Shown here one piece after another: positions 16,421 to 46,402 of a stretch of 64,000 nt of DNA. The stretch comes from Aurelia coerulea (taxonomy: Eukaryota; Cnidaria; Scyphozoa; Semaeostomeae; Ulmaridae), in contig CM076943.1 of NCBI GenBank assembly GCA_039566865.1, forward strand, positions 33,674,663-33,738,662, given 5' to 3'. The translations under genes were made by a program, and so were the position numbers. Position 1 is the first letter of the stretch; each line of letters starts with the position of its first letter. The notes beneath the pieces are model-generated. The model saw only the letters and a list, made by a program, of their open reading frames with translations, was not told the DNA's origin and did not search any database.

Positions 16421-16503
16421 CAACCCAACCTCCTAAGAAATTTTAGTTCTAACCACTAAAACGTCGTGACCTAATTTTAGTTGTCTTTCCTAAAATTCTG
16501 TCA
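16421..16503 (+). repeat. Left terminal inverted repeat (83 bp)
   Basis: Begins CAACCCAACCTCCT and ends AAAATTCTGTCA. Compared with the reverse complement of 46320-46402, 78 of 83 positions agree; the differences are at positions 15, 16, 17, 19 and 28. Similarity stops abruptly after position 83. The inner 55 bases match without a difference, and include CTAACCACTAAAACGTCGTG, a plausible transposase-binding stretch (inference). Confidence 0.95.
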
Positions 16504-17377
16504 GTTTTTATAATGACTTGTCTTATCTCGGAAGCGAGGCTAATCGTGGTTGTGACGTGTTCGCTCTTGTTGAATGTTGTGTAGTTGAACAACAGCGGAT
16601 TGTGGACCGATACATCACATTTGATCCAGTCAAAGGAACTGCAAATTGGCTCATAGAAAGGTGATAGCTTCAAAAAGAAAAGGCAAGTACTGTGCATACA
16701 AATTATATTGCTTGATTTATTGATTTCGGAAAGGAAACTTGGCCAATTTATTTTCTTTACTTAGGCCACCTTTCTAGGCCGCCTCCCTTGCCCTCTTGCC
16801 TTGTGCAACACATGTCTTGTATTCTTTGCGTTTCTCTTGTGAGCGATCAGTGATAGCCTAAGTGATGATGATAAATTTCAACCCTTTACAATTTAACTGT
16901 GAAACAATACTAAGTCAACATGATTAATTCTATCTAAGTTAATAAAAATAACGTAATAATACTGGGAATACAATAGACGATTACGGAAAAGATGGCGTAC
17001 CTCATTTCCTCTCATTTCGCGCAATGCATGATAGGAATATGCCCCCTAGCAACGCATAGCTACCAAAATTTATGACTGCAGCATAAAATCTTTACCACAG
17101 TTGCGATAGATTTAGGCCGTCGCAACTTTATTGTGACTTTATTGCGTCGCAACTTTATTAGCTGTGAAACCGGACAAAAATGTCAATCTGCGACAAGTTT
17201 TTGTCGCAAACTCATGTGCTGATTAGAGTATGGCTTAGAGGAAGGTGCTTATTGCATTGATGACTAGAATGAACATTTATCGAAGTTCTGATAGCAATTT
17301 CTATGGTACAGCCACAGGAGTTCTGGAAAACCGTAAATTTTACAATATACTTATACATTTGAGCTCTTGATTTATAG
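16504..17377 (+). promoter_or_regulatory. 5' region of the transposase gene
   Basis: No convincing coding sequence. The 14-bp word GTCGCAACTTTATT occurs twice, at 17119-17132 and 17146-17159, with further GTCGCAA copies nearby, which suggests a degraded repeat. A splice acceptor-like TTGATTTATAG ends at 17377, just before the first coding exon, so a non-coding leader exon probably lies somewhere in this stretch. I could not place a TATA box or start site with confidence. Confidence 0.35.
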
Positions 17378-17545
17378 AAGCAATGGCAAAGCGAAAGAAA
17401 AAAGATGAATTTGAAAAGCTTGAGTTAACCCCAGAGGGTTTGTTGGAGCCACTCAAAAGCTACTTGGAACAGCCAATTTTGGGTAGTGTGATAGGAAAAA
17501 GACGAGATGAGGATATAAAGAAAAGGAAGCCATCATTAGCAAAGG
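17378..17545 (+). CDS. Transposase exon 1: start and basic N-terminus
   Basis: The ATG at 17383 follows acceptor-like TTTATAG and is the first in-frame start. Residues 1-54 are rich in Lys, Arg and Glu (MAKRKKKDEF at the start; KKRKPS near the end), resembling a nuclear localisation signal. The frame stays open to a TAA at 17569, so an unspliced 62-residue product is the alternative. The donor chosen (AAGG/GTGGAA) is the only GT giving the phase needed by the next exon. Confidence 0.6.
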
Positions 17546-20500
17546 GTGGAAAAAGTTTGTACCACGTGTAACTTATTTTGCTAAACCATCTGATGCTCGG
17601 AAATGTGCACCTAATGTTTTTAAGGAAACCATGGATTTGAAACAATACTAACACTTTCTCAAATTTCACCATTTGAATGTTAATATTTTTCAAAAGATCT
17701 CCTGGTTGGTTTTCTCAAATAATTATTTACACACGTAACAGGACCTTGAATGATAGCAGCTTCTGTGCAAGCTGACCAAGTTTACCTGTATAAATATAGA
17801 TTATTATTATTATTATTTTAAAACATCTGAGAGCACTAAAATTTTCTTAAAATCCTTTATATTCTGTTTTACAAGAACGTTTACATCCTCCTTGCTGTAT
17901 TGGAGGTAAATTATTCAAAAATTTGTAGATAGGTTATACATAACTACTCTATATATTTGGCTTGATTGGTCACATTATCTGTTTAATATGTGTGTACATT
18001 GATTTGACAACTGTCTTGTGCTAATTAGTCTCATTTATATCTTCTGTGCACCATAAACTTTATATTAATAATACATTTTTTATAGAGCAAAGCAGCAAGC
18101 AAGCTCCTTTGGCAGGCTCAGAACCATGTACAAATCTAGGTTTTTATGAAATGGATGCTCCTTTAGTTGATGGTAATTTTTATTTCATACCGTATCTATT
18201 TATAAAAAATGCTGCTTGAAAAAAGTGAAAGCCGAAAGCAACTTATAAAGTGCTTAAATCAAGGAGATTGAAACAAGCCAATGTGGTGTGGTTAAGAAGC
18301 TTGTCCGGAAAGTTTTAATTTTCTTGATTTATCTAACAATTTCAATGTTTCTTTCCAGCAATGAAGGAGAAATCCTTGCTTGCTGCTGTTGAATATTTGT
18401 AATTGTATACATATTTGTTTGTTTTCATGATTTTTTTAATTACGGCTTTAGAGGGGAGCGTGATGCTTATGATCAAATCATTCTGATAGAGGCAGCCCTT
18501 CAAGACCTCTGGTTTAATTTTATCTGCAGTAGATTCATGATCTACTTTGTGTGTTTGATGATTTAGTATATGACATCTGTTCATGAAAAAAATTATAATA
18601 ATTTTTTATCTTCAAATTCTATACTGGAGTTGTTTGAAGCAAGCATCCTTTTTTGTACCAGTCAATGGGTGCCATACTAGAACATTATTTTCACATAATA
18701 GCAAATCTGACATCTAGTATCAATTTCAAATCAAATGGACTCTGGTATTATTTTCCTCATTTTACCCTAGATGAAGATGATGATAGCACTCCTGTGACAG
18801 AAGAACAGCATTTTGATAATGACCATTTTCAGCCTGACCCTACCTTTGCAGCTTTGAAAAGTGACTGTGTAGAACTGCTAAGTGCTTACAATGATATGAA
18901 GGAGGTTCAACCTGCCAAGTTATCATGGAGAGAAAGGTGCTCTAGATCTGCTGAGAAGTGGGAAGTATGCAGACAAGGAATCATGAAAGCAGTGCTGAAA
19001 AATGAAAATTGTGAAGATGAAAGATTGTGTGATTACTGCAATTCAAAACATGGTGTCATTCGTTGCCTTGACTGTTGTTGGAAAGTTCTTTGTCTCAAAT
19101 GTGATGCAGTGAAGCATGAAGGAGAACCTTTTCATGACCGTGAAGTCATGCGTAATGGTTTTTATCAGGCTGTGTCGTCAAACGTAACACTGGACGAAGA
19201 AGGGAATATTACAGAGAAAGGTAATACTGTTTTTGCAAATGATGTAATTATATCAATATAGCAGTCCACGCCTTGTGTTCATGCCTTATCACAACAATTT
19301 CCTGAACTTGGTCAGAACATTCAAGAAATCTTTCTCTCCTGATACAGAACACATTCTCCAGAGATAAATACTGTAAACTGAAGGGATCTTACAGAAAATC
19401 TTCAGAGTTAAAAATGTTCCAAAGAATTCACAAGAATCCTTGTATCCAATCCTGTGCTTACAATATTTTTAACCCAAGGCCCGCAGGGGGGGAGTACATG
19501 ACTTATAGATTGACGGGGGTCTGCCACCTGATTTTCAGAAAGGTACCCTCTCCTAATAGTATAGTTGTGATTAAGTCCTTTTATTTCAACTTCAGGAATG
19601 CTTCCTCCATTACTTTTGTGCAAAGAAAACCATTGCTCTTGTGGAGGAACTTTGACCATTGAAAAATCATCCCAAACATGTGCTATTGTGACAGTAAAAG
19701 GTGGGCGCATTTATTTTGATATGTTCTCCTATTGTTTGTGATTTTGGTTTGAGTGCAGAGAAGCCTTCCATGCAGAGACTGATGGGCAACTGAAATCTCT
19801 CAAGTGCACTAAAACATCATATGATATTTAGTGTATATTCAATAATGATATAAAAATATTCAGATTCATAAGATTTAAAGTTTGATTATCAATATTTCTT
19901 TGCCACATTGCAATCTGTAACATTCAGATCCTTTATTTTTTGTTGCATTGCAACCAGAAATGATTCAAGGTGCTCTTTAATTAAAAGAAATTTTTTTCCA
20001 TCATAGGGAGATATGATTTTCCAAAGTTTCTCCTGTCATGCGAAGAATGCCAAAATAGTGTAAAGCCATTTGAGCTTGAGAATCTGATTTGCTGTGGATA
20101 CTGGCCTGGAAGTACATTGAATATTTCATATCTATTTTCATTTGATGTTCTAAACCTATGGGACTCACTCAGGAAAAGATTGCCTGGATCATCTTCAAGG
20201 GGATTTCTCAAGTCTTTAGAGGACATCTCAGTTAGTAAAGGCAGGGTATGATTCCTAAGATTGCTGAGTTTTTGCTGCTACAGAACTTTTGTTACATCCA
20301 AAAAGGTGCAAACTGAATATGCACCCCTCAGTAGAAAATGCAATTTGCACAGAATTTGCAATCAGTTTGCATCAAGTTTACTTCTTTGTTCTTTGTTCTT
20401 CTATCATTCTTTTGGAGTTTGTAAGCTTGCATGATCAATTTTGGCCCACAATTCAAGCTCTTCACTAAGAGGTTACACACTCCTAAACATACTCGACGCA

Positions 20501-23500
20501 AACTTTGCAAACTCTTTGCAAATTTGCTGTGAAATAAATGCAAAATAATGCAGACTATTTCTACTATTGTTCTGCAGCAGATCATAAAATATATGCACAG
20601 ACAAAGGATAGTGACCAATTTGTAATAGCAAGGGGATAATTATGAGCAGTCAATTATCGTAATTTACTGTAGATTGCGAACTTTTGAGAAATTTTGGTCT
20701 CGTTTCTGTTTGAACTAATAAAATGAATTTATTTCAATGCTCTTACGTTGAAAGATCGGAATTTCCTAGGAATTCCTAGGAAAATTCTGGCAAAGAAATT
20801 TGAGAAAACCAAGGAACTGAAAGAGCTTGGAAAATAGGAAAGCTTGGAAAATTTCCCGAGAATCCCTAAGGAAGGTTAGAAAAGGTAGAAAGGGCTAGGA
20901 AAATGTGCATGAATTGTCTTTAAATCCTCTCAAAAACTTGGAAATCTAGGAAAACTTGAAATAGGTTATTTTAATCGGGTGCTCTATGTATATTAACAAT
21001 TAATTTATACTGTTAATGTTTGTACTGTAGGTTGGTGTTATCAATCCAGATGCATTTGATGCAGCATTTGATGAGTGGTGCTATTTGAAGTATGAACTAT
21101 CAGTACTAGAAGGGGTAAATGGTTTTGCCTGTCCGTCATGTGATGGAAACCAACACACAGCTCATTGCGATGGTGATGCAAAGTTGGTGCGCTGCAAGAG
21201 TGGAGGAAGGTTAGGAATAATTACATACCGGGGGTGGGCAAGTAGCATCGTACAAACTTGACCTCCATGGTTTTGTTGATATCCGTTTTTGTGGCATTCA
21301 AGCTATTAGTTCACATCACATTGCTCCGTTTTTGTAAATGGAGGGAAAAAATCCGTTTTTGTCCGTTCACACTGAACCGCCTGATAACAAATACGGAGAG
21401 AAAAACCTTCGTTTTTGTGCGTTCACATCGCTCCGTTTTTGTGAAACTCACTGTTGAATATTGGAGCGTTTTCAAAAACCTCCGTTTTTGTGCGTTCACA
21501 CTGATAAAGTGCGTTTTCAAAAACCTCCGTTTTTGTGGATATCCACTTTTGATAGCGTTTTCGAAAACCTCCGTTTTTGTGGCATTTTTGTGCGGATCAG
21601 TGTGAACACTTTCACAAAAATGGAGATTTTTCTCACCGTTTTTGTACAAAAACGGAGCAGTGTGAGTGGGGCCTAAATTGCTGGGGAAAAGACCATTTTG
21701 CAAAGCATGATGTTGCTACCCAAAGCAAGCAGTTTACTATACGGAGCCGGAGGGGTTGACCAAACGGTTTTTATCAATGCCCTACAATGGTATGGCTGTC
21801 ATCCCCAGTTTGATATTCCCACCTTAAATATCACGCTTTTGATATCATCATTTGTAAACTTGGCTGACACTGGTAATTTTAGCTGAATGATAGTTATACT
21901 TTCATCCCCAAAGCAAAATAAAAGATTCATACTACAAAGAAGCATTCATCTATGACAACAGTAAAGTAGACTTGGTTCTCCAGAAGGTATACAAAAATGG
22001 CAAATTGAAACGGGTACGTAGACATGTATTTCGTTTTTCAATCATGATTCTAGACAAACTAATTATTTCATTTATTCAATTCCTTCATTCAGTCATTCAT
22101 TCATTCATTCAATCATTCATTCAAAACCGTCCTAGCTCCTGGCAGTGCAGAAAGCAAATTTAATTTTGGTATTTTCTGCCCTGAAGCTAAACAAGACGAA
22201 GGTACGACGAGTGCTCAATTCAAACGGTAGAATTATAGACAAGTAACTAAAATTTCTTCAAGCCATTCAATTAAAGTAAATAGGTCATAGAATGTTTGCA
22301 CCCACCTTTCTCCACAGATGTAAAGATTTTCAACTTATGCTGTGATATGTTATAGTGATGGCTCATGCTTATATTCGAGACACTTCAGGAAGATATCTGT
22401 TATAAAAAGGATCCTATCAACTCATTAATGGTCTGGTAATAGATTTCTACGAAATATCATACCTTACCAATATCCAGATAATGTAACTGCATTGATCAAC
22501 AGTTCAGTTATTTCGCATGTAGCTGCATAGACAACGTTAACAGTTATTTCATTATATTCTTAGTCCGACGTTGACAATCGATGTGGTGACTCTGTTTGGA
22601 AAGCAGCTGATAACCTCCCAAAGAGGAAGCGTAACTTAAATGAAACAGGCCTTCAGGTGGCTGTCTGCCGTCATGGAATAGCACAGAAAGCAGTCAACAT
22701 GTTTCAGGGAGAACTGTATGGCTATTCGTTGTATTTACAAAGAAAATTGATGGAGCCAGAAAATGTGGAATTTATGGTGATAGATGTTGCCTGCAAATAC
22801 TGGAAATGGTTGTCGAGAGTTGATCCTGATTTAGCAGCAGTAATGCATCCAGCAATTGGCGTCATGCATTGTAAACAGCACAAGCCTTCGTGTCAGGTTT
22901 GAGGAGCTTCGTAATTTATTTCTTGCAATGCTAACTTTATTGCATGCTTATACACATATGACTATGATTTACAGAGCCTCAATGACAAGTTGGTAAAAAC
23001 AAGCAAGAGAACCAAGTTTAGGAATTCAACGCTATCGTAAGTTGTTGTTTGTTTAATGATGAAAAAGAGAGAGAGAAAAAGAGTCAAAACAGTTAACAAG
23101 TTTTGGCGAGATGTGGAATAACAAGCATGCGGCTGACATTTGAAACTGAAGTAAAGGGCTAACTGGCATGTAAACATTTTGTTTGAGAAAATCACTTATC
23201 TTTTGGATCTTGAAATTAGTACAATGCCCGTGAGGGGTATGTATGGGAGCGAGAATTCCATACTTGATTCTGGTCTATGATTTACTTGGCAATGAAATTG
23301 AAATTAAATACAATTTTCACTTTCATAGAAATATAATTTCAATTTCAATGGCAAGTAAATCATAGACCAGAATCAATTGTGAAGTTCTCGTTCTCAAAAT
23401 ACCCCTAACCGGCATTTTCTGAATTCCTGGGTCTAAAAGAATTTACTCACCTGGTAGATATGGAAGCGTGCAATAAGTCCCAAGGAGGTTAGCCCTTGGT

Positions 23501-26500
23501 TAAACTTTATCATAAGCAGTTCAAAATTTTTCAAGCAAAAGCTTCCTATTAATGCATACTTTTCATTTTAGGTCAACTTTGGTACACGTTGGGTAGACGG
23601 TATGGGTTTGACAGCAGGCGAAGAGTGTGAGCAGTTCTTTTCGTATTTCTCAAGACTGGGGAATAACACTAAACACATGCTTCCTGAAGGTATACTTTCT
23701 TATGAATGTAACGTCTTTTGTACAGTTCACACAAAAGTCCAGTATAGGGCTGATTGTAAAACATATTGCAGAGTCATTTTGATTCTTTTATGAGCTTAAA
23801 GTTGGTAAATGTTTGATCAAATATGGTAGAAGCCGCATAAAAGAGACTGTAGATTAAGAACCTCTAGGCTGATTTGTGGCCAATTAAGCACCTTCCACAC
23901 AAGAACCACTATGTAAATGTAAAGAAACCATCCTAGCCTGTTACAAAAAATATCGGGTTCTTTCATACGGGTTTTACTGTTGTTCTCACGTTTTGAATTA
24001 TCTCACAGTGTAGTGTACTCTGCTTTCTTTCAAATCAGGGCGAGAAGAGACACTAACAGAGCATGCATTCGCTTGGAACAGAAGGAAAATTGGTGCATTG
24101 GCAGAAACTATAACAAAGCGTTCAAAGAAGGTAACAGGAATTTAAAAACTTGTTCATTTATTTAGGCACTATGACATCAATTCATCAAGATGCTCATTTA
24201 ATTTTTTTGTCGATATCTAAGTCTCCATCTGGCTAACATTTGTCCCTAGCTTCTCTCACTGACGTGCAGCTCTTGCCTTGACCTAGAATCATTGTAAAAC
24301 TCATGTTCTTTATTACACATGAAGATAAGTTGCATGCGATATGGCAAATTAAGTTGGTTTGGTATGCTCCTTGTACTCATTGATGGTTACCATATCTATT
24401 TTAGGTTAAGAAGGCAATCCTTGATACTAGACATGAGCTGAATACAGAAATGCGAGAACTTGATCTAGATGTGCAAAAATTGAAGAGGATGAAGGAGACA
24501 GTCAAAAACTGGGCCAAAGGTATTGTTAGGACTCTTGAGAGTTATTCATCTATGTATGATTCTGTGCTGAATATGTGCATCTTGCTACAGGAGTGAGTTG
24601 CTGTGGTAAATTGATTTAGAATATAAAATACATGCCCAACTATCAGATACTTCATTACCCAATAGTTTCCATCAGGAAACCTTAGGATATATATTCTTTC
24701 CAATCCGTCCGTTGTTTGCAAAATGATTTTCTCGTCCGTTGTTTGCAAAATGATTCATCAGTCAGATCTCCTCATGTTAAAAGTCAATTTTTACGTTAAC
24801 AAAGACTGGTAATGACAAGAATTGCCTTTGTTATGGTCTTTGGCTAATTCATCGGTGGTTCATGATGAATACGAGGCAGATATATTTTTTAAGGAAAGGG
24901 TGACGGGGTGGTTTTTTTTTGCAATAATTTCATACGGGGTGAGCAGGTTTCCTAGCAAGAATTTTTCTTCTGCACCGGCCCTGTCATGTAATAGATTTTG
25001 CACTGTCCCTCAGTGTCAGATTAAGATATTAGCAAATAATTCCATTACTAAAAGCACTATTTGTGGCCTGGTAGAGATTGTTCTTTTGCCCGTTTTCATT
25101 TATTCTCTTAACTGTTGCAGGCGATATTGAATCTGCTGCAGCAGAGAATGACTTTGATCGGTCAGAAGATGCATTCCTTATCTCCTATCAGTTGTGGAAG
25201 GAGCACCAGTTACCAACTGATGTCATAATCCAATTTAATGAAGAAATGCCTGATCTGCCACTTTCAGCTCTTCAACACCCATGCACTACAAGAGGAGTTG
25301 TTTGGAAGCAAAATTACATCAAGAAATATTTGGAGCAAAATCAAGACATTTCATCATCTGATCACCTGCTACCAGTTTGTCGTAAAATCCTTGGTTCTTT
25401 TGAAGGTCAAATTGAATCCAGTTACTATTCCAATGTCCAGAAACACTTGAATATGAAGAAATTAGCTGGTAAGATGATTACATCTTTCATTTTGTAAGAT
25501 GAAATGATATCTTGATCTTGCTTTCAGGATATCCATGCGTAAAATCAGTTAAAACTGAAAAATGCCAATTTTCTGGAACATAAGAAGTCACAACATTCAC
25601 AATGAGCGGCACAAATCAGTCAAGACTAAACTAGGTTATGACTATCAGCAAATACGATTAAGCCAGTATTTCAATAAACGAAGCTAGTTTATTCTAGGTT
25701 TGAACACTCCGTCAATCACGTTGGTTTTTGTTTACACTACTTTTGCACTGGTTTGTGATTCCGTGTAAATAGGTTCTAACAGCTTTATTTCTACAACATA
25801 TCATTATAACTATTGCAGAACCAAAGGGCGTATGCAATGGTTAATAGGCTACTCTATAGAAGAAAGAAGAAAGCAGTCAGACACAGCATTGTTTCTTTGG
25901 CATCCATTGTTGAGGGCGTGTGTGCAGCTTCGGTTAGGTTTAACTTGGGTTTGACCATGCACAAGCCCTTTGATTTCGCATTTCATTTCCCGTGTCCGTT
26001 GGAAGGTGGTTCTCCTGGGTGGCAGCGCGTGTTGGGTATTGGGAGTGGGGGATATGAATATTTGGGAATCATTAAACACGTGAAAGATACCAGATAAATT
26101 TGTAATTTACAATTGCAGCAACCTGCAAGCAGAGAAATACCTTGTGGAGACAGCTTTCTAAAGAAAGGGAGACCTTGAAGTGTAATATTGAGAAGTACAA
26201 CACCTTGCACGAGTTTATATGCAAACTTGAAAAGAAGCCAGCATCTAAAAAGATATCCGCTGATAGCTTAGAGATTGGCAATTTCCCATGGACCTCAAAA
26301 AGTGGGCTACAAGGTAAGACATCGTAAGAACGAATGAATTGTTCTATAACGGTACATATTTGAAGGCGCAAGGGTGTATGCAACAAAGGAGGAAAATCCA
26401 GCCCTTTAAGTATATGTGATGCAATGCTTCTTCACAAAACCATTTCTGAGACTACTGCTTATCCACGTTCGTCGTCAATTCTTAGTTAGCTCTTGGTTTT

Positions 26501-29452
26501 GATGCAAACTTACTGAATTCAAACAGTATTACATGATCATGGAACTATGAAACAATTTTGGAGTGTTATTACTAAATCTGAACGTCTTTGATAAACCAGG
26601 CAAAGTAATTTGTCCCTTCGACAATTTTTTCTTGCTTTATTATTTTCTCGGTAGTCAGACACACTTCTTTCACAAGCTAGCTATGTTGTTAAAACGGATT
26701 TCAGAATAAATTTTTCATTCCTGTTCGTTTTTGTTAGGTATTAATCACAAGGAGAGAGCACTTTTGGAGAAGTTTGTGTTTCTAGATAGAGCGAACGAGG
26801 AACTGAACATATTAGAAAGAGAGAAATCGAACTATCTGAGATTCTACAGAGAGGTCATTCGTATATTACGCCAGGAGATATCATCCGTTGAAGGTAAATG
26901 GCACCCAAATCAATTATTCTCGTACATCTTTTCATGCTATATATTCCATGTATACACAAGTTTTATCGTTGAAGTTATGCTTGCAATTCACGCCAGCACC
27001 CAGTTATACATTATTCCATGCTTTGATTGAAGATCATTGAGTCTGTGCATAAATGCGCAATGCTACTGGGTGAGTCAGAAAAAGGCTACTGCTCCCTAAA
27101 GGTACACGCAATAATAGTTTGCAATATCTGACTGAATTGCAAACATGTTCAATCATTTTTGGAACTTTTTCTGTCTGAAATCGGCCACTCTGTTCAGATT
27201 TTACAAAGGATTTACTCGAATTCGAGAAGAGGTAAAAACCGTGCCAAAGTCAGGAGCAACTGTTCCTAAAACATTTACCTTACAGGAATGACTTGAACAC
27301 GCTTTAGCACGATATACTCTAGGAAAAATAGACAAATCCTGTAGTATGAATGATTTATCCAGGGGGATTTTTAATTTCCCCTGGATGAATTAATCTAATT
27401 TAATTTCTTTATCTTTAATTTTTATTTCCAATAATTCATCATTTTCTCAGGAGGACAAAATACATTAATACATGTAAGTGCCTTTATAGTTAGGAAGGAA
27501 AGCCGCTGAAGTTTTGCTCGTCATTTTTCTTCACTTTTGCTGGTTCTCGAAGAGGGATTTTGCAGAAAATCTCTCCTAGCCATGGGATGGAATGGCATAT
27601 GAAAACTGAATGATTTACTGAACCTAATTGAACATATCTGAAATATAACGAGACAGTTTTCAATATCATTACTTCAGGGAGTGGCATATTTTCAAACGCA
27701 TGCTGTCTTAATGATATCTCTGCCATTTAAAGCAGTTCAAAGCCTTGTTAGATCAATTTGTTTTCTTTTATATGAAGTTGTTAGATGCATGTTATTATAT
27801 CGTGCTTTTCTTTGTTAAATTCAGTTTGCAATCAAGTTTCATCCCAGGAAAATGTTTGCATGCATGCATACATAAAAAGATACTTTACTTTGGTACGAAA
27901 AGTTCACAATTGAAAATTTCTTTTATAGATCCAAATGAGCAGCAAACTGCATGTGAGTCGGAGAACCAACAAGGGAACGAAGTAAGTTATGTTTTGAGTT
28001 CTTCTATTTTGATACAAATATGCTTTATTCGAAGTTCCCAGCTGCTAACGGCTGAAGTTCATAGCTGCTAGAATGGTAAAAGAATGTGGAATTGGCAATT
28101 TAAACATTCTTTTTGGAATTGGCTCTGTAATGCTATATAGGAAGCATTTGAAGTAAATGTTTTTATCGATATAGGCACTTAAATCTTGTTCACTTAAGAC
28201 CCTTCATAAAGACATATGCTGCTTAACCTTCTGTGTAAGAAGAAAGGTCTAACTTTTCTCGTTCTGTTATGACATCGTAAAGTTGACTAAAACTTAAATT
28301 GATTGAACTGGGACCCGATCTCCAATGAAATAGACTGTTTCAAACGGCAGGAATCGAGTACCCTACCATAGATTTTAATCGTTTTGCTCAAAACTTCTTA
28401 TTAATGGCTTGATTAATGTTCTCAAGCATTGCACATACATGGTAGAAGACTCCAATGGTGATATCAAAGCAGGAATCAACTCAGTGAAAAGAAGAGGTCT
28501 CCAATTCGCCCTTTCTCAGATTGTCAAGGGACTTCAGTCTTTTGAAGATGATAAGGAAAGAACGGAGAGAACAGATTCACAAAGTTATGAAGCTAGTGGT
28601 GAAAATGATACTGCAGAAAATGTCCAATACAGACATGAAAATCCCAATGATTTGGATGGTGACTCGGATGAATATGACGAGGATAACAATGCTGAGGAGG
28701 ATAATGAAATTGATAATGATCCGGACATTGGTCCCCAGGTTCAGGCATCCGGTCTAACGTATCAGAGAGGAGTAGATGGTGTTTGTTACAGAAACGTTGA
28801 TATTAAGAGATTTCATCGCAGCAGCAAAAAGTTCGCCGTATCAGACAGAGAAGATGACGGAGTCCTTATCTCTTACTTTCCTCACAATGTCTCCCAATCA
28901 ACATTGGATGGTCGCAATGAAAGCCAAGCTTGTTGCGTGATAAGTTTACTGGCCTGTCACTGGTTTCTCAGGAATGAAACGGACATCAGCCTTGACTTAG
29001 AATCACCAGAAGAGATTAGAGCCGTTGTCGTTAACAGCATTCGAATTGGAAACTACCTCCATGATCGATGCCGAGATGCATTGCCTCCAAGGTTTTTGAG
29101 TGTATTGGAAGGAGTAACAGTTCTTGCCCCATGGTTCTCGACGACAATTGATGACATTATCCCATTGCAACCAAAGGGTGATCAGTTCTCACTCTTTTAC
29201 CATCTACGACGGCTGATGAAGCTAGGAAAGAGAATTTCAGCTCTTATAACCTTACAGGAAATGACATGTGCGTTGCTACTTTCTACAGACGGTAGAGTGC
29301 TGTTTATTGACACTCATACTCATGTTACGCATGGAGCACTACTACTTCGTTCATCGCTCTTTACATTCAAAAGTATTTGCAGCTTTCTTTCCTCAATTCT
29401 GGGAACAGACTATAACACTGGCACACTAACCATTGTATCTTGTGACGATTAG
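17383..29452 (+). CDS. KDZ-superfamily transposase, 16 coding exons, 1252 aa
   Basis: Exons inferred from GT-AG sites and phase: 17383-17545, 18086-18172, 18771-19220, 19596-19700, 20007-20245, 21031-21209, 21914-22013, 22564-22896, 23572-23689, 24039-24130, 24405-24519, 25121-25468, 26119-26313, 26738-26893, 27929-27981, 28427-29452. They total 3759 bases with no internal stop. Order of parts: basic N-terminus (1-55); B-box-like cysteine cluster (170-205); second cysteine cluster (242-283); CGYWPGS motif (298-304); CPSC followed by DGDAKLVR (382-402); CRHG (476-479); VIDVACKY with Asp515; histidine/cysteine motif MHCKQHKPSC (542-551); GEECE (568-572); coiled coils (about 620-890); peptidase-like end (about 1040-1252). 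These motifs, in this order, are typical of KDZ transposases, which cut and rejoin DNA at the terminal repeats. Weak points are the first donor (GTGGAA) and the last acceptor (CTCAAG), so exon 1 and the join to the final exon are less sure. Confidence 0.85.
18771..19220 (+). CDS. Transposase exon 3: B-box-like zinc-binding cluster
   Basis: 150 codons between acceptor TTTTACCCTAG and donor GAAAG/GTAATA. It starts with an acidic run (DEDDDS). The cysteine cluster reads CDYC, then C, then CLDCC, C, LKC and DAVKH...H (residues 170-205 of the joined protein), a cross-brace pattern like B-box fingers. KDZ transposases commonly carry variable N-terminal cysteine clusters thought to bind DNA or chromatin. 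The open frame extends upstream of the acceptor (from 18653) without family-like sequence, which I regard as intron. Confidence 0.82.
19596..20245 (+). CDS. Transposase exons 4-5: second cysteine cluster and CGYWPGS motif
   Basis: Exon 4 (19596-19700) carries CKENHCSCGG; exon 5 (20007-20245) continues with GRYDF and SCEEC, forming a second metal-binding cluster across the splice junction. This is followed by CCGYWPGS and a helix ending SLRKRLPGSS, then FLKSLED and KGR. The passage from a cysteine pair through GYWPG to a short helical segment is typical of the region just before the catalytic core in animal KDZ proteins (family knowledge). Both junctions keep phase. Confidence 0.85.
20757..20960. 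repeat. Related AGGAATTCCTAGG repeat
   Basis: Starts GGAATTTCCTAGGAATTCC and continues with purine-rich words such as AAGCTTGGAAAATT. Similar to 42264-42590. Lies in the intron between transposase exons 5 and 6. Confidence 0.4.
21031..21209 (+). CDS. Transposase exon 6: CPxC motif and first catalytic Asp
   Basis: Contains DAFDAAFDEW, then CPSCDGNQHTAHCDGDAKLVR (residues 382-402). The DGD-x-KL-x-R word is the first conserved strand of the RNase H-like fold in this superfamily, and Asp395 is the likely first catalytic acidic residue (inferred by motif, not alignment). Donor GGAAG/GTTAGG is followed by an intron holding a nested repeat (about 21271-21676). Confidence 0.88.
21271..21676. repeat. 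Nested repeat with CCGTTTTTGTG motifs
   Basis: About nine copies of CCGTTTTTGTG or close variants, separated by GCGTTCACA and GCGTTTTCAAAAACCT words. The right end (CGGAGCAGTGTGAGTGGGGCC) is partly inverted relative to the left (TTCACATCACATTGCTCCG). It looks like a small non-autonomous DNA transposon in the intron between transposase exons 6 and 7. A similar end, CAGTGTGAATGGGGC, occurs near 36346. Several short open frames here are by-products of the repeat. Confidence 0.6.
21914..22896 (+). CDS. Transposase exons 7-8: core with CRHG and second catalytic Asp
   Basis: Exon 7 (21914-22013) begins after CCCCAAAG and encodes DSYYKEAFIYDN...KNGKLKR. Exon 8 (22564-22896) is 111 codons and holds the most diagnostic block: LNETGLQVAVCRHGI (residues 466-480), NMFQGELYGY (486-495), VIDVACKYWKW (513-523), and IGVMHCKQHKPSC (539-551). 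The CRHG...GE.YGY...DVACK succession is the clearest signature of KDZ transposases in the window. Asp515 is the probable second catalytic residue; the Cys/His positions probably bind zinc within the core. Confidence 0.92.
22085..22123. repeat. ATTC microsatellite
   Basis: Imperfect run of (ATTC)n in the intron between transposase exons 7 and 8. Confidence 0.8.
23226..23413. mobile_element. MITE-like hairpin (188 bp)
   Basis: Two arms, 23266-23306 and 23334-23374, match as inverted repeats at 39 of 41 positions around a 27-base loop. Similarity continues outward in weaker form to GCCCGTGAGGGGTAT on the left and its inverse on the right. Size and structure fit a miniature inverted-repeat element in the intron between exons 8 and 9. 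Confidence 0.7.
23572..24519 (+). CDS. Transposase exons 9-11: catalytic Glu motif and start of coiled coil
   Basis: Exon 9 (23572-23689) encodes GLTAGEECEQFFSYFSRLGN; the GE..E motif supplies the last acidic residue of the active site in this family (Glu569 or Glu572). Exon 10 (24039-24130) adds a helix with HAFAWNRRKIGAL. Exon 11 (24405-24519) is strongly helical and charged (TEMRELDLDVQKLKRMKETV), the first coiled-coil segment. All junctions are in phase (1, 0, 1). Confidence 0.88.
25121..26893 (+). CDS. Transposase exons 12-14: helical tail
   Basis: Exon 12 (25121-25468, 116 codons) follows a classic acceptor ACTGTTGCAG. Exon 13 (26119-26313) encodes CKQRNTLWRQLSKERETLKC, and exon 14 (26738-26893) a heptad-like LLEKFVFLDRANEELNILER. 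Such long helical tails after the RNase H-like core are common in KDZ proteins and may support oligomerisation (inference). An open frame at 25813-26097 between exons 12 and 13 does not join in phase and was left out. Confidence 0.82.
28427..29452 (+). CDS. Final exon: acidic linker and peptidase-like domain
   Basis: An open frame of 341 codons ending in TAG at 29450-29452. It starts with a basic helix (INSVKRRGLQFALSQIVKGL), then a very acidic linker (DGDSDEYDEDNNAEEDNE), then a folded-looking domain. The domain has ESQACCVISLLACHW near its start and STDGRVLFIDTHTHVTHGAL near its end. A Gln-x-Cys helix start followed by a strand ending Asp-x-His is the Cys...Asp/His order of papain-fold peptidases, including deubiquitinase families such as C76, not the His...Cys order of Ulp1. 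The peptidase call is an inference. It may be joined to the transposase through exon 27929-27981 (phase 0 on both sides) or translated separately from ATG at 28439. Confidence 0.6.
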   Translation, partial: HCTYMVEDSNGDIKAGINSVKRRGLQFALSQIVKGLQSFEDDKERTERTDSQSYEASGENDTAENVQYRHENPNDLDGDSDEYDEDNNAEEDNEIDNDPDIGPQVQASGLTYQRGVDGVCYRNVDIKRFHRSSKKFAVSDREDDGVLISYFPHNVSQSTLDGRNESQACCVISLLACHWFLRNETDISLDLESPEEIRAVVVNSIRIGNYLHDRCRDALPPRFLSVLEGVTVLAPWFSTTIDDIIPLQPKGDQFSLFYHLRRLMKLGKRISALITLQEMTCALLLSTDGRVLFIDTHTHVTHGALLLRSSLFTFKSICSFLSSILGTDYNTGTLTIVSCDD

Positions 29453-29717
29453 ATGTCATTTTGGAGTTGACTGACATTGTAAATTTGGAATAAGATGAAT
29501 ATTTTGTTTCTGTTCCTGGCTATTTTGTGTTAATCTATAAATTTATCATGTCTAGATTGACAAAAATCGCTTTTCTTTGATTTTTTTCCTTACCATTTGT
29601 TGACTTCGTTTTGGAACAACGTGATGAGCTACCTAGTGTATCAGAAAATATGGGCCACTTTGGAATTTCTTGAAAAGACGCCTTTACAGGGGCATGGTAA
29701 AATTGGCCATTTTCTCT

Positions 29718-29723
29718 AATAAA
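29718..29723 (+). terminator. Candidate polyadenylation signal AATAAA
   Basis: Lies 266 bases past the transposase/peptidase stop codon on the same strand (CTAATAAACCTGG). Position and sequence fit a 3' end signal, but AATAAA is frequent by chance in AT-rich DNA. Confidence 0.4.
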
Positions 29724-30324
29724 CCTGGTACCAGCATTAACCATTTATCGTTAGGATAACTGAATCCTAATTGAGAAGCTTTTGTCTACATTGGCTGGCT
29801 ATAATTCACCACCAAATTCTTATCAAATAAGAGTTGTGCCAAAAGAACTTTTTTCGTTTGAAAATTGCTTGTACGGAATATAAGCTTGATGAATGTCTGT
29901 GAAGAACAGTTTGATTGATAGGCTAAATAATATCTGATGGTTTTTTCGATTCCTCTATTTATTGCATGATCGAGGATGTAAGTAAACTGGATTTTACCAC
30001 AAAGGGCCAAAAACACTTGATAAAAATGAAGAATCTTCTCAGTCACAGCAATATGAAACTGTATTTCAGTTCCCTCAAGAGTAAAATAATTGATATTTAC
30101 AAAAGTAGCTTTACATCGTATCATTCATATACATGAAGAAATGAAATATATTTCAGTAGCACTGTCTATTTATCATGATCGATTACCTTCGAATTTATCA
30201 TAAGAAAATAACAAGGCAATTAACAACTATAAAGCATAACAAAACGGAAAGGAAAAGTAACGTCTTTAGGCTCAACGCACTCGGTGCATAACAACGTATG
30301 AATGAAATTAGTAAAAAAAGCACA

Positions 30325-32137: not shown

Positions 32138-32530
32138 TAACTTCAATAGGAATATGACAGTGGTGTGCCATTTTGACATCACACCATAAAATATGTAAAT
32201 TTCCCATAAACCATACCCAAAATGTACGGGTCATTCAAAATGTGTACCCTAAAACTGTGACAAAAAGTAAAAGCAATAACCAAGCATATGAACTTAGATC
32301 AAAATTAATAACCAAATGAGTTATCGTTTTAAAATGACTACCCTGGGTGCCAGAGCCATCAATAAAAAAATAAAATAAATATACTAAAATAGAAAAATTG
32401 GCACACAGGGTATAAAATGACACACCAAAATGCATGTCTTTTGGCATAGAAATGACACCCTAAACTTTATTTTCTGCTTAAAAAAGGTACCCTAAAAAGG
32501 CACATCCCGTACCGGTATATTTGGTAATTA

Positions 32531-32978: not shown

Positions 32979-33130
32979 TTGGAATTCCTGACAAGGAATT
33001 CTCTTTATGTTGAGAATTTAACGGTCATGCTCTTAACCTACTTCCATAATCATGACCTCAATGATCGCTATATAATTATGGGGAGGGGGATGTTTCTCCA
33101 TTGATCGTAATTTACATGTATAAATAACAT

Positions 33131-33630
33131 AGGGCTCCAATCTTTAAAATGGTTGGTGTAAAATTCTATTAAAGTTTCTTTTGAATTAAATGGCTTGGAA
33201 GGAACTTAGCATTTTTTGCTCTAAACCTGCCACGGAAATTTATTGATATTCTGCTTGGTTTCAAGATGGCGGCATTTATCAAATGTGAGGCTATGACGTC
33301 ATCAAATGTCTAAATCTTAAACCAAACAAGAAACTGATTTCTGATTTTCATCATATTGTAGGCCTTCATAAACTATGGTTTTCTTGAAAGTTATATGATT
33401 TTTCCTTTGTTAGTTTAGGATTTCCGATGATTTGAAATTTTTCAAAATTATCCATGCATTTTTTTGAAATATTGAAATTGCCGCCATTTTGAAAAAAATC
33501 AAGATATCAAAAAATTTCCACGGCAGATTTACAGCAAAGCACCATACGTTTCTTTCAAGCTATTCAATGCAAATTTGCAAAGAAAACTGTCATATAATTT
33601 TACACCCACATTTTTAAAGATTTGCACCCT
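33131..33630. mobile_element. Foldback repeat, copy B (500 bp)
   Basis: Same family as 30325-30735 but longer. Outer ends read AGGGCTCCAATCTTTAAAAT and, inverted, AGGGTGCAAATCTTTAAAAA. Both copies are internally palindromic, so relative orientation is hard to define. The pair could pair with each other over hundreds of bases. Confidence 0.7.
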
Positions 33631-39900: not shown

Positions 39901-42900
39901 ACACGTACAGTAAGATGTTACATGCAGATTCAAAAGTACACCCCATATCTTGCTTGATCTCATATTTGGAATTCTTAATTCTTCTCCATATTTAGAATCA
40001 AGAAGAACTCAGATTTCAGATGACACACAATCTCTTTAAAAACTGGTTTCAGCAGAGCCTGCAAAAAGCTAGTCGTAGTAAACTGTCAGTATTTTTTTCT
40101 GCTGGGGGGGGGGGCATTTTTCAAAATTTTAGTGAATTGACAAGTACCAGAAAAGAAATGTCATTTTCATTTTAGAGCCTTGTGTGTAGAGGTTTGGTCT
40201 GCTGTGTGAAATTACTGTCACTACAGTAGTGATGCTATAAAACTCAAAGGTTATTTTCATCACTTGACTTTGTAACAATGACAGATGTTCCACTGGAAAG
40301 ATCACTTTTATCAATCAACTGCCACAATCATAGAGTAGAACTAAGGGCATACCAATACTTTCAATATTTTCTGTATCTAAAATGAAATATATATACCTCT
40401 ATTTCTCTTCATAGTGCGTCTCCATCTTTTTATGTCAACTGGAATATTCCTTTCAGCTTCAAAGAGAAAAATCCTAAAGTGAGAAACTTAAATAGAACCT
40501 TTGAAATTTAACAACAAATTACAGATATTAATAAATCTCAGAAAAAATACATGCAATAAATGTTTTGGCGCAGAGCTGTCATCAGTAATGACTATTCATA
40601 ATCAAACAAAGCCTTTACATATATGTCTTGGGATACAAAGAAACTATGGAAAGGAAAGCTAAAGCTGGACCCTATACTAAATTCATAACAGTTCATCATA
40701 GAAAGGAGCCAGGTGTATAACATGGACCAAGCTACCTTCTCCAGAATGATGACAGTCAGGTCTGTGAAGTGTGGTCCTCCTTTTAGAATTTTTTTATGGG
40801 GCAAAATTCAAAAGAGTGGACATTAATCTTGCAGAATGGATCCAATGTAATCTGGTTATAGAATCTAAACTCCCAGTTAAAAGATATCACAGTTTTACAA
40901 ACACTGAGTTCTGCAATTTGGTTTCCAAAATAACAAAAGCAGAGCTCCTCAAACTATGGAAACTATGGAATCTTTTTCAAAGACCTCACTGTAGCCCCAG
41001 GTTTCTCATAAGATGGGACAGGAAAACATTCCCCATTCACATATTAATGCTTATTTGATTATAGAACTGTTCTTAATGCAACTTACTTACATGATTCAAA
41101 TTTCACAAACGAGAGGGCAATCAGTTCCCCCATAGTGGTCAATGATTTGCTGTCACCAACATATTTCTGTGCTAGCCCGCTTGTGCTCTGCACCTTCAAT
41201 GAAAGATGCTTTCCAGATGCTGTTGGGTTAACAGATATCAATATTGTGTCTGTATCATGATTTCTTTTCAAGATCTCAGCCTGAAACAAAATTAAAGTCC
41301 AGAAGTTGCAATGTATTTGCATTCAATCCATCCATTCAGTCCATTAATCATACAGTAAGTAGAATCTTATGAAGTCTTGTTCAGAAATTATTTGCGAGTT
41401 CCTTTTCAGGAACTTTTTGCACCAAGCCTAAGTTCATACAGTACCTCAAGGATTTGTATCTGCATTGAAGAACTCGTCATAATTCCTGGAAAATCCAAGT
41501 ATATCAAGGCTGCATTATGTAAATTTTAGAATACAGTTTTTTCCAACATAACTTTATACCTGGTACTTGACCATTCTAAATCGTGCAGATCACAGGCCTT
41601 TTGCACATGACAAGAATTGTTCACATTTATGAGAACCAATTAAGACTAGTATGTTCCAACTTTAAACTGGAAATTCTTAATTAAGAACTTATGAAGTTCT
41701 TAAAAATAAAATTATCAGGCAAGATATGTTAAAATATAAAAAATTCAAATAAATTCAAGCACATTTGCTGTTGCATCTATCGTTGTGTTGCAGTATTTCT
41801 GTCTTCAACAAATTTATGTGTTAATGTGCTAGGGCAATGCCTGGGGGCCATGCACTGAGAACATGCCATATTCCCAGTAACTTATGTATAAAAGCTCAGT
41901 GTTGTCAAATGCCATCCAAAAATGGCCCAAAAATTCTCAATCAACGGAGGATGGGTATATTTATTTTGGAAATGTCCAGGGTTGGCTGGGGAATTGAATG
42001 AGACATTATAGTAAACATGGCTCAACCCACATTTCTCTCTTTGAAACAAGGGTTTTCAAACATCAATGAAATGGGGTTATTAACGAGATTTCGCTATTTT
42101 TGATTATTCATATGACTAATTCCTATGATTGTGGTGTCATAAATGGAAAAAAAAATGTTGAGCTGCCACTTGAAAATAATTAGAACAAACCCTTTTCCAT
42201 AAATTGCTGGCCAGATTCTGGTTTCAGCATAGCCAGCACATTACAACATACATAAAGTATGGGCCTGCCCGTACCACAAAAGCTGGGGAGATAACTGGGA
42301 AAGCTAGGATTTCCTAGGATTTCCCCAGTTTCCCTAGCTTTTTCATCAAAACAAATTTCAAGCTGGGAATTATGTTTCCTATGAAGCTGGGGAAGCTGTG
42401 AATCAGTACCCAAAGAGCTAGGAAAGAAATTATATTCTACTATTTCCCAGCTTTCCTAGGAATTTTGCTCTTTTTCCCATCTTTTTTATCCTTAGGAATC
42501 CTATGTAGGAAGCTAGGGAATTTTGCCCAGAAATTACGCAGATAAATCCTAGGAATTCCTAGGTATTTTCCAGTTTTTTTTAGTATGGGTGATGCACATT
42601 GATATTTTCTTCCTTCTGAAGAGTTCGCAAGAATCCTTGACTTATAACTGTTACATTACAGCCCTGAAGAAGTCCTGCATGGCAGGACGAAATATTGGCA
42701 TAAATAAATTGATTCAACCATTTGCTGTTGTTTTTTTGTTGTATTGCGGTGTTTCTGCCTTTAAACTCATTTTTTCCTTCTTGGGAGCTCTTGTTTAAAC
42801 ATTTTGGCTGGCTTTCAAAGGCTCAATTATTCTTATCAGAAGGTCAAACTCTTGAAAACACATACACACAGAAGCATTTGAGAAACTGTTTGCCAACTTA

Positions 42901-45900
42901 ATGTTCACAAAACCCATACTGCATACAAATATTGAATTGGTATACTCACCCTCTCAAACATTCTCTTTGACTGCTCGGACTGATTTGTCTTCCCCTTCAC
43001 ACCACAAACACGTCTCTTCTTTGAAAATACAGCCTTGCAAAATTTACAAGTCCGATTGGCATTTGGTTGCAGTTCATCAGAATTGCAAGAATAACATTTC
43101 TGAAAATGACACAAAGAATGGGAATTAACTATGGCAAATAATGTACCAAAATATGAAATCCCTATAGTACAGACCTTCTGGAAATCAATGATACAGTGAT
43201 AAGAATACAGGGAGTCCCAAAAAATTGTGCCCCGTTTGTCTGAAGATTGCAACAAAACGGCGAAAGATTCTCGCAAAACTTTTGCATGCTGCTCTTCAGA
43301 TATTCAATTAAAGTTTGCTACCATCCCCGTAAAAATCCGTTGAGAAATGATGGAGCTATGACCTTCAGGAGACCAAATTTGACCGATCACTGAAACCAGC
43401 GGTTGGCCATTTTGTCTTACTATTTTGCAACGATAAATAGCTTCATGGATTGAAAATGAAACAGCAGCCTCCAATTTCATAGCTTTTGTGAAAATTCCGA
43501 TAATCCTCGGTGAGTTCCACCATTTCTAACCTCACAGAAATCATTTCTTTCCTCACGTGAAGATACTTATCACTGCAAAATAGTAAGACAAAATGGCCGA
43601 CCGCTGGTTTAAGTCTTCAGGCAAATTTGGTCTTCTGAAGGTCACAGCTCCAATTTCTTGGCGGATTTTTATGGGGATGGTTGCAAAATGCAAACTTTAA
43701 TTGAGTATCTGAAGAGCAGCATCATGCAAAAATTTGGCGACAATCTTTTGCCGTTTTGTCGCAATCTTTAGGCCAACAGGGCACAAATTTTTTGGAACAC
43801 CCTGTAGAGTTTCAAAGAGTTTCTACCATATTGTCACCATTTCAATGATTTCTCATAGGTGTGTGTTAACCTCCATCAGCATGATGTTTTGTGGGCCTTT
43901 GTAGCATTCTTGAGCCATCTGAAATACTGTAACTTTTTCTGTACAAGAATTATGGGGCAAGAAAATTACATTAATGTGTACAAGGTCCATACTGTTAAAT
44001 TTAATCAAGTTCATACCTTTCATTATTTGAAGTAAAAGAGCAAAACAAATGTGCTTACTTTCATGGCAATGGATGGTCTTGTTGGCTTCCTTCCTGCAAT
44101 GAAACAACCTAATGCTAACTGCCTGAGTTACATTTTCTGTCAATATTTAGCTTATAATCTACAACAATTACCTAACATATGATAGCAACTGGCACCAAGA
44201 CTATTTTCAACAATGCGTGGGCTAACACGGCATTTATCAAGTAAACAGCTGTATTCTTTTTTTGAGGGGTGTCTTACTCTTTAAAATCTCAAACAACTTC
44301 AATGGCAAAAATCCTTTTGTTTTCAGGGAAAATCTGTAGATAATCGCTAAAAATCCCATTTTTTTAAACAAATTTTCCACGTCTTTTCAATAGCGTGCTA
44401 CACCCCTCGCTTATTTTGCTAAAACATACAAATTGATCTTATGAAGACTGGCATAAACAGCCTCTTGTGAACTGTGGAAAACCCAAAACAAAAATATAAT
44501 ACACTGAAATGCTCCCTCTACTAAAGCCTTGAGGCAAGAGCCTGCTCAACAAGATATGGCAAAATCTGACTGACCTGTTACTGTATATTGTGATGCAATT
44601 ACTTTTAAAAACCATGCTACTGTACATACCCACATTAAAATTTACATTTTCTGCAGCATTTGAATAATCCTATTCTTGAAACACAAAATGTCTCAAGAAT
44701 CTGTTTGGAATTCTTTTTCTTATGCAAGGAATTCTTGTGAAAGGGAATCCAGAACAATATCACAAGATAAGTAAAAACATCAGGAAAAATATTACTCTTA
44801 ACATTTCCTTCCAAATTAACAGGCAATTACTTTTAAATGAAACAACAAGGAACATTTTGGAAAAGGAAGTTGCATTCACTTGCATGTAGACAAACACCAT
44901 GTTAAAGGGAATGTAAGCACATAAAATGGCTCAAGCCACTTGCAATCAAATTCTAGCCTATCAGATATCAGTATTTCCTGTTGGCATAGATCAGTTACCC
45001 AAATATGATGTGGCATGTGTGATAGCCTATTGTATTCGCATACTTATTTTCATCAAGGGCTTATATATGCTTAGATTCCCTCTAAACTCCATATTTAAAA
45101 TATCTCTGTTACAAAGATCCTGGAGAAGGGTACTTAATGGTTAAAGTGAGCCTGGACCTACCGCTTGTATGAATGGGTTTTTTCATTTGAAATTCCTTAC
45201 AAATAAAATGGGTCTGTTTTTAACCTTAATTCTGGTAAGTGGGTAGTTTTTCTAGAATTTTCTTATCAATGGGTCTCATAATGATTATGTGCACCAACAA
45301 CTCTGAAAATTCCTTATATTTTGCTTAAAGTTAGTTGACAAGATAAATAGCTAACTCAAGAGCTGCACATATGCACATGCAGGTCTAAGATTAGCCTATT
45401 GTATTTGATGATTTCGACATGTGCGTGCACAGGTACATTTTTACTAGGGGAGCAATTACTTGTGTACGCGTTCCCTTGTCCTATTTTTAGATTACCTCTA
45501 CTTAGCTCCCTCAACTAACTTTAAGAAATGATTAATTCAAGAAAAGACAACGTTTTGTGTAGCCAGTCAAAGCTGAAGAAATTTGAATAAACCTTGCATA
45601 TTACTGCCTTAATTAATTGACAGGATTCATCAGATAATTGGTCAGAAATTTCCTGATATTCACGCGAAAGGGTTTGGAATTCTTGAATATTCCGTCATAC
45701 AAATGGGTCCTATCGTCAAAGAAATTCCGGATGATGCCCTAATCACGATGAAGTACCCCTCCCCACGGGGGACAAAGATCTTAATATACTGCATAGCCTA
45801 TATGGGCCTAACTAAACAATGGGTAGGAAGATGCTGAAGAAATTCCAAAAATCGTAGAAAATCCAATTCAAGGGGGTTTCAGCTTTTAAATAATGTCAGT

Positions 45901-46235
45901 ATATTGCATTTTCTCAGCTATCGATTGATGCCAAATTAATTGAAGTTAAACCAAGGAGCTTTGAGAGGCGCGCGATCAAACGCCATAATAGTCATCAAAG
46001 GCCTACCTTAGCCTAGGCCTACTGTTAAGCGTGCGTATCATGTCAGATTTGAGACGAAGATCCACTGTATTAAAACTCTGAAATCACGTCGGGCTAAAAG
46101 GACAGGTTAGAGAATTTAGTAAAATGTGATTCGATGAACTAATTCTAATTGAATTCAACAATAGCAATGTCTTCTTATACGTAATAAGTACGTAATAATA
46201 AGTAAGAACTTACCGCTGTTCGATGCTGCCTCCAT
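36903..46235 (-). CDS. Zinc-ribbon accessory protein, 8 exons, 234 aa, function unknown
   Basis: Minus-strand exons in coding order: 46235-46214, 44093-44059, 43918-43871, 43099-42950, 41280-41087, 40473-40397, 38602-38486, 36964-36903. They total 705 bases, open from ATG to TAA, with every junction in phase. Parts: basic N-terminus; zinc ribbon with CYSC and CKFC 12 residues apart (residues 37-56) followed by a basic KKRR stretch; a compact domain (86-150) with TDTILISVNPTASGKHL and SLTTMGELIAL; a basic segment IKRWRRTMKRNR; and an acidic tail of Asn-Asp-Asp repeats. I do not recognise the family. It starts beside the right terminal repeat and converges on the transposase gene, so a role in end binding, regulation or nuclear targeting is a guess. 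Weak points: the third donor (GTTAAC) and whether the last exon ends at TAA or splices on at GTAAAT. Confidence 0.68.
38486..38602 (-). CDS. Accessory gene exon 7: acidic Asn-Asp repeat tail
   Basis: Acceptor TTTTTTGTAG, then codons for DADRQPENEEND and a run of AATGATGAT triplet repeats giving repeated Asn-Asp-Asp, then RLPIEEGLLND and donor G/GTGAGA. The repeat tract (about 38522-38573) is a trinucleotide microsatellite inside a coding exon, so its length probably varies between copies. Exon 6 (ending in phase 1) joins it directly. Confidence 0.65.
41087..41280 (-). CDS. Accessory gene exon 5: compact unknown domain
   Basis: Begins after TTTGTTTCAG with AEILKRNHDTDTILISV and runs 64 codons plus two bases. 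The later donor (TGTAA/GTAAGT) is preferred over one four bases earlier, because only it keeps the frame into exon 6 (40473-40397). The alternating hydrophobic pattern suggests strands followed by a helix. No known domain recognised. Confidence 0.72.
42264..42590. repeat. CTAGGAATTCCTAGG-rich foldback repeat
   Basis: Multiple copies of TTCCTAGGAATTCCTAGG-like words and AAGCTGGGGA/TCCCCAGTTT inverses; the ends (CCCGTACCACAAAAGCTGG and the inverse of CCAGTTTTTTTTAGTATGGG) are roughly complementary. A related purine-rich stretch with the same palindrome lies at about 20757-20960. Probably two copies of one repeat family. Confidence 0.5.
42664..42692 (+). ncRNA. Hammerhead-like hairpin from a retroelement tail
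   Basis: CTGAAGA, one A, then a perfect 7-bp stem (GTCCTGC/GCAGGAC) with loop ATG, then GAAA. This resembles the CUGANGA...GAAA core of hammerhead ribozymes, but has an extra base before the stem, and I cannot identify a clear third helix and cleavage site. Similar tails are found at the 3' ends of some animal retroelements, so this may be a relic insertion in the intron between accessory exons 4 and 5. Confidence 0.3.
42950..43099 (-). CDS. Accessory gene exon 4: zinc ribbon
   Basis: Exactly 50 codons between acceptor GTGTCATTTTCAG and donor AGAGG/GTGAGT. Two CxxC knuckles 12 residues apart (KCYSCNSDEL and TCKFCKAVF) form a zinc ribbon, followed by SKKRRVCG and KGKTNQSEQSKR, a basic patch suited to nucleic-acid binding. 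This is the most clearly coding part of the right half of the element. Confidence 0.8.
43206..43806. mobile_element. MITE with CAGGG ends and TA duplication (about 600 bp)
   Basis: Left end (TA)CAGGGAGTCCCAAAAAATTG and the inverse of the right end, (TA)CAGGGTGTTCCAAAAAATTT, match at most positions, with TA on both outer sides as for Tc1/mariner-type insertions. Long internal inverted arms include CCAAATTTG, CCAGCGGT and GGCCATTTTGTCTTACTATTTTGC. No coding capacity. Sits in the intron between accessory exons 3 and 4. Confidence 0.75.
44100..46213 (-). other. Intron 1 of the accessory gene
   Basis: Bounded by donor GTAAGT at 46213 and acceptor TTTCATTGCAG ending at 44094. I see no convincing exon or named repeat inside; short open frames (for example 44439-44633 and 44926-45144) look like chance. 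Confidence 0.5.
46214..46235 (-). CDS. Accessory gene exon 1: start codon
   Basis: A 22-base coding exon: ATG, then codons for EAASNS, and a strong donor G/GTAAGT. The ATG lies 84 bases inside the right terminal repeat. The next exon (44093-44059) begins after TTTCATTGCAG and completes the split Gly codon. Confidence 0.65.
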
Positions 46236-46319
46236 TTCGTAAGCTATTCTGCATGACCCTAGCTGACGGCAAACGTACAACTACTTCATGTAAATAAACA
46301 ATACTAGTGTTGTAAATAT

Positions 46320-46402
46320 TGACAGAATTTTAGGAAAGACAACTAAAATTAGGTCACGACGTTTTAGTGGTTAGCACTAAAATCTTAAAGGAGGTTGGGT
46401 TG
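46320..46402 (-). repeat. Right terminal inverted repeat (83 bp)
   Basis: Inverse partner of 16421-16503, read on the minus strand from 46402. It lies only 84 bases upstream of the start codon of the minus-strand gene (46235), so promoter or leader elements of that gene probably overlap or adjoin the repeat. Confidence 0.95.

Follow-up and report, generated by a model that had tools for sequence, protein, structure and literature searches.

We confirmed that positions 16421-46402 of the window (the whole 64,000-nucleotide stretch of Aurelia coerulea DNA analyzed here, C1:33674663-33738662 of a 574-Mb assembly with 294 contigs) are a complete transposon of 29,982 bp inserted within a satellite array. 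Judging from its predicted genes, ends, and genomic copies, we assign it, with a probability of roughly 0.85, to the KDZ superfamily as a giant DNA transposon that moves by cut and paste and is probably autonomous. A spliced transposase of ~1,200 residues, whose zinc cluster is of the CxC3 type and whose KDZ core is RNase-H-like, would recognize the 93-bp inverted ends and cut out the ~30-kb unit, which would then insert at a 7-bp staggered cut. A sequence-only reading of the window had proposed a complete KDZ transposon, and the ends, the 7-bp duplication, an empty site, two more full-length copies, and the KDZ profile all agree with that proposal.

Ends, insertion site, and related copies

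The limits of the element were read directly from the sequence. The element starts at 16421 with CAACCCAACC (CAACCC...) and finishes at 46402 with GGTTGGGTTG (...GGGTTG). Self-alignment and genome copies defined terminal inverted repeats at 16421-16513 (plus strand) and 46310-46402 (minus strand), each of 93 bp, that differ by four substitutions and two 2-nt gaps when left and right are aligned. The inverted ends of the earlier reading are thus real, with their length revised from 83 to 93 bp. The 7-bp target site duplication that it reported was upheld as TGCAGCA at 16414-16420 and 46403-46409, supported by both the sequence and the empty site.

A satellite of ~250 bp fills positions 16-16420 and 46403 to the window end almost without breaks around the element (period of 249-250 bp with 87-88% matches, and on the right side also a 487-bp period). 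The boundary is sharp, with a GC content of 27-28% and a steady negative skew in the satellite and a GC content of 34-38% and an altered skew in the element. As an empty-site query, we used a 160-bp junction consisting of the left flank including TGCAGCA and the sequence following the right TGCAGCA. This junction was spanned by 136 of 137 BLAST matches in the window's own satellite (76 gapless; median identity, 91.9%), and the best six satellite matches were 100% identical to it. Thus, the joined flanks match satellite monomers exactly, indicating precise insertion with a 7-bp duplication.

A 90-bp query from the left end matched 18 places in the host genome, far above chance. In addition to the window copy (A1), two complete copies of this family (family A) were found: A2 on C6 (30,958 bp; duplication CTTGGTT) and A3 at C4:19027297-19057662 (30,366 bp; no duplication visible). 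Both terminate at the same bases as the window copy, in agreement with the limits proposed from the window alone. Agreement of termini did not mean that all copies are full length, since one has an internal deletion, one is a left half, and two are partial ends (on C21 and C5). The internal-deletion derivative, A4 on C9, spans 3.4 kb and retains only element positions 1-1594 and 28199-29982 (~98%), with both ends and its own 7-bp duplication, TATCTTT. Because A4 kept its ends and has its own duplication, the ends plus at most 1.6 and 1.8 kb appear to be enough for movement in trans. A5, also on C9, contains only the left 16,260 bp and breaks off at element position 16260 within a MITE-like repeat (L019:7839-7840). 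Private inserts were seen in A2 (~970 bp; L009:1261-2229), A5 (976 bp; L018:2312-3288), and A3 (429 bp; L013:5523-5952); those of A5 and A3 have inverted ends, implying that other elements are active too.

The giant KDZ element has moved recently. Pairwise comparison of A1, A2, and A3 revealed 24, 46, and 64 substitutions over ~29.9 kb (0.08-0.21%), with the window copy diverging from the other two by 0.08% and 0.15% and A5 diverging from other family A copies by 0.11-0.23%. The sequence-only reading had reached recent movement through the near-identical ends of the window copy, an argument that does not hold. The left-end query was 100% identical to the left ends of A1, A2, A3, and A5 and 92% identical to the right ends of A1 to A4; the left-right mismatches are therefore inherited and provide no insertion clock, and it is copy-to-copy identity that dates movement. 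The copy comparisons yielded 84 variable sites along with 17 indel events, none of the latter in modeled exons. Variable sites occurred at similar densities in exonic (9 in 3,621 bp) and non-exonic (74 in 25,926 bp) sequence, which leaves the copies as yet without a sign of selection.

A second, diverged family (family B) consists of three end pairs on C9, at 35.2, 36.8, and 40.7 kb, and a single end on C11, with ends 83% identical to the family A end query over the outer 64 bp. The 40.7-kb copy, read whole, is 40,655 bp long, with duplication TGTATTC, inverted ends of 80 bp, and the same gene layout as family A. The remaining two pairs were read for 50 bp at both ends; one has GATCTAT on both sides and the third, B3 (C9:11710858-11746049), has no duplication. 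A perfect 7-bp duplication was hence present in five of the seven copies with two ends in families A and B, the two others being A3 and B3, whose flanks may have been exchanged through inter-copy recombination. A further family (family C) occurs on C2, C12, and C17; two of its copies have more than 16.5 kb in common, and the C-terminal transposase exon is present. We saw no second gene in the 20 kb read in each of two family C copies, and its near end as a query gave four matches with no inverted partner. The left limit of the family C copy on C2 adjoins 3.1 kb of sequence with inverted ends of 97 bp (99%; L034:287-3407). Genome-wide, 60 exon-level KDZ matches exceeded the Pfam cut-off, which is a count of exons rather than elements and, from an exon-by-exon search, a lower bound.

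The transposase gene and its C-terminal domain

The predicted transposase gene lies on the plus strand. Its probable first coding exon (17383-17529, with an approximate 3' boundary) has 25 of 47 residues conserved in family B. Pfam matches, family B, and splice phase support a block encoding CxC3 and the KDZ core (18771-24130) with exons at 18771-19220, 19596-19700, 20007-20245, 21031-21209, 21914-22013, 22564-22896, 23572-23689, and 24039-24130. Conservation with family B and splice phases then place exons at 24405-24540 (with a weak donor), 25121-25468, 26119-26313, and 26738-26893. The last exon (28427-29452; stop at 29450-29452) encodes an acidic stretch followed by a C-terminal domain of ~240 residues. 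Apart from the probable first exon, families A and B have these 13 exon blocks in common, in the same order and at 25-86% amino acid identity.

Between 18771 and 26893, the junctions have candidate splice sites with matching phases, including the one with the weak donor; as the sites were picked partly for phase, they provide support rather than proof. The 5' junction and the junction ahead of the last exon are tentative in our model. The last exon starts in another phase in both A and B, so the model probably lacks a small exon. The intact frames claimed by the sequence-only reading are supported with the exception of these two junctions: the frames of the modeled exons are open, and exon structure is identical in A1 to A3. 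These open frames, together with splice phases and conservation, support an intact predicted transposase.

The spliced core matched the KDZ profile PF18758 (E value of 2.5e-33; 116 bits against a cut-off of 26.6) and the CxC3 profile PF18804 (E value of 2.2e-23), in line with the KDZ motifs seen earlier, and the joined transposase was assigned to no other family. Residues D356, D476, and E530/E531 of a 583-residue piece, which we take to be the catalytic acids, were invariant across seven aligned relatives. With the KDZ domain, the CxC3 cluster, and the putative catalytic acids all present in the predicted protein, KDZ superfamily membership is established. The 19 database proteins matched, all with KDZ, were led by Acropora, followed by one EukProt protein, Clytia, and teleosts; the named ones with the highest scores are cnidarian. 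Between A and B, third codon positions were 30-50% identical and second positions 64-91% identical in the eight transposase blocks tested. We used these identities instead of dN/dS, for which only 2 of 11 blocks gave a value, silent sites in the others having diverged too far.

The C-terminal domain had no match in Pfam, NCBIfam, or PDB and, scored alone, matched no database protein at an E value of 0.001 among 2,680 candidates. It was also absent from the eight core relatives that we inspected, which stop before it; the search for core relatives excluded proteins well over 1,100 residues in length, and the search with the C-terminal domain admitted longer ones. In the host genome, we detected 28 matches to the C-terminal exon, 22 of them with a KDZ exon match no more than 30 kb away. 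All 22 lie on the same strand as KDZ and 5.5-16.8 kb downstream. AC and TH motifs are common to three diverged families, with Cys138 and His266 invariant there and a Tyr preceding the TH motif in family B. A single-sequence structure model had a mean pLDDT of 38.9, and a PDB profile search with the three families was rejected (best E value, 1.1). The unmatched C-terminal domain with its conserved Cys and His looks new. We propose only tentatively that these residues could mark a cysteine peptidase whose targets are host factors for modification or silencing.

The convergent second gene and the element interior

A second predicted gene is transcribed toward the transposase gene from the minus strand. 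Its four exons, which A and B have in common with matching phases where we placed the splice sites, are at 44059-44093 (conserved with family B), 42950-43099 (a Cys-rich, zinc-finger-like exon with CxxC...CxxC; 21 of 48 residues are the same in family B), 41091-41280 (the longest; 41 of 63 identical), and 40397-40456 (a basic exon; 16 of 19 identical). We found neither end of this gene. Codon positions 1, 2, and 3 of the longest exon were 63, 79, and 35% identical between A and B. The same exon matched one database protein, P0020 (92% over 66 amino acids), whose source label, Seg3879.6 of GoldUCD, we take to be an Aurelia annotation. Pieces of the last transposase exon and of the second gene matched no curated family; Pfam matches of the second gene to zf-UDP (0.0042, under the cut-off) and Usp (weak, 0.27) were rejected.

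The longest exon had 19 matches in the genome, 10 of which are within 30 kb of a KDZ match. Each of the 10 lies 16.0-25.8 kb downstream of KDZ on the opposite strand. They represent A (three), B (three), and four loci on C2, C5, C9, and C17 that also contain the C-terminal exon; since copies within one family are not independent, their weight is that of about four families and not of 10 events. The other nine places have no KDZ match within 30 kb. Six of these nine are on contig C5, where decayed elements are possibly accumulating. The convergent gene, with its Cys-rich exon and fixed arrangement with KDZ, looks new, and we found no described relative. Its predicted product might be a DNA-binding accessory factor, an assignment that we regard as doubtful.

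Modeled exons total 4,056 of the 29,982 bp, and the remainder, surrounding the two conserved genes, is made up of introns, spacers, and small nested repeats. We found neither large cargo nor a TET/JBP dioxygenase gene in the modeled exons and the 9 of 27 open reading frames of at least 90 amino acids that were scanned. A nested 3.2-kb inverted-repeat structure (30336-33573; arms of ~390 bp, ~86%) contains a repeat at 32529-32969. This repeat, 83% identical between A and B, was rejected as a conserved noncoding element; its own inverted ends (TACAG...CTGTA) and its likeness to the 429-bp insert of A3 indicate a MITE-like dispersed repeat. An imperfect palindrome (23244-23396; 66-bp arms, 86%) lies inside a modeled transposase intron. 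Four microRNA matches on it, at 23256-23384, all scored below Rfam gathering scores and were rejected.

Alternative explanations and known KDZ elements

It is highly improbable that the two ends are separate small elements, or that the copies arose by segmental duplication, with the 30 kb between the ends being host DNA. The mostly noncoding interior and the two copies without target duplications would suit such an origin, but A1 and A2 align colinearly over their whole length and have the same terminal bases, unrelated flanks, and different 7-bp duplications. Furthermore, the satellite array around the window copy is otherwise intact, and a host origin of the interior is refuted by the empty site as well as by the second copy. 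A non-autonomous window copy, with a non-functional transposase and moved in trans by another copy, appears unlikely. Its modeled exons are all open, the putative catalytic acids are kept, and exons are free of indels in A1 to A3, although the splice model is incomplete and the 3.4-kb A4 represents movement within family A without the transposase gene. Also in favor of non-autonomy, the transposase genes of giant KDZ elements in Ectocarpus are often pseudogenized, as described in the text of PMC12477816 compared here.

We likewise give a low probability to the C-terminal domain and the second gene being hitchhiking or unrelated genes outside the transposition machinery. Some places, namely 9 of 19 for the second gene and 6 of 28 for the C-terminal exon, have no KDZ exon detected within 30 kb, and the database core relatives inspected stop before the C-terminal domain. 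Against this, order and strand near KDZ are constant for every second-gene and C-terminal match in several diverged families, with 0.58% of the genome lying within 30 kb of a KDZ match. The places without KDZ may be decayed elements, and the KDZ search gives a lower bound.

Our preferred reading remains a giant, probably autonomous KDZ transposon, in an animal genome in which two KDZ families, diverged from each other and 30 and 35-41 kb long, share ends, one of them with near-identical copies. DNA transposition efficiency is said to drop with length in the portion of PMC6431247 consulted; the 30-kb element and the 3.4-kb derivative with the same ends offer a natural pair for asking how a transposase moves 30 kb. 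For a role in long-element movement, the C-terminal domain and the convergent gene offer specific candidates. These features may possibly define a distinct cnidarian lineage of two-gene giant KDZ elements, with a peptidase-like fusion, a convergent zinc-finger partner, and 7-bp duplications combined with long inverted repeats, a proposal that we hold loosely. If true, large size would be old, occurring in families of 30 and 35-41 kb, rather than the result of chance cargo capture, and the lineage would be a natural carrier of tens of kilobases of DNA in an animal.

Within the literature covered, which takes in few subscription papers, we found no paper pairing KDZ with giant transposons and scyphozoa or with transposons and jellyfish. 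The claim of the sequence-only reading that 30 kb is an exceptional length is weakened by algal elements. According to the compared text of PMC12477816, KDZ elements reach 30.3 kb in Ectocarpus, where giants have nested insertions and additional genes, and a 31.7-kb KDZ element cited therein is actively transposing in Chlamydomonas. Like the Aurelia element, these giants combine a KDZ transposase and a length of tens of kilobases with additional genes and nested unrelated insertions shared among copies, but they are algal, and their genes and ends are not described in that text.

In the description available in PMC12730594, two Laccaria families of Kyakuja have a 7-bp duplication and CA...TG termini without inverted repeats, and Zisupton has 8-bp duplications and inverted repeats. 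The Aurelia element resembles Kyakuja in its 7-bp duplication and CA...TG termini but differs from the Laccaria families in its inverted repeats (93 bp in A and 80 bp in B). It resembles Zisupton in KDZ superfamily membership and inverted repeats, whereas its duplications are of 7 bp in five of seven two-ended copies and not visible in two. With 7 bp, CA...TG, and long inverted repeats together, neither description, as far as given there, fully fits.

The CxC3-KDZ proteins of Acropora, Clytia, and teleosts are colinear with the core of the Aurelia transposase at 29-40% identity (seven aligned), with identical putative catalytic acids, and differ from it in ending without the C-terminal domain (eight inspected). 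On account of its animal host, its unmatched C-terminal domain, and its convergent second gene, we regard the Aurelia element as a distinct variant within a known type of transposon.
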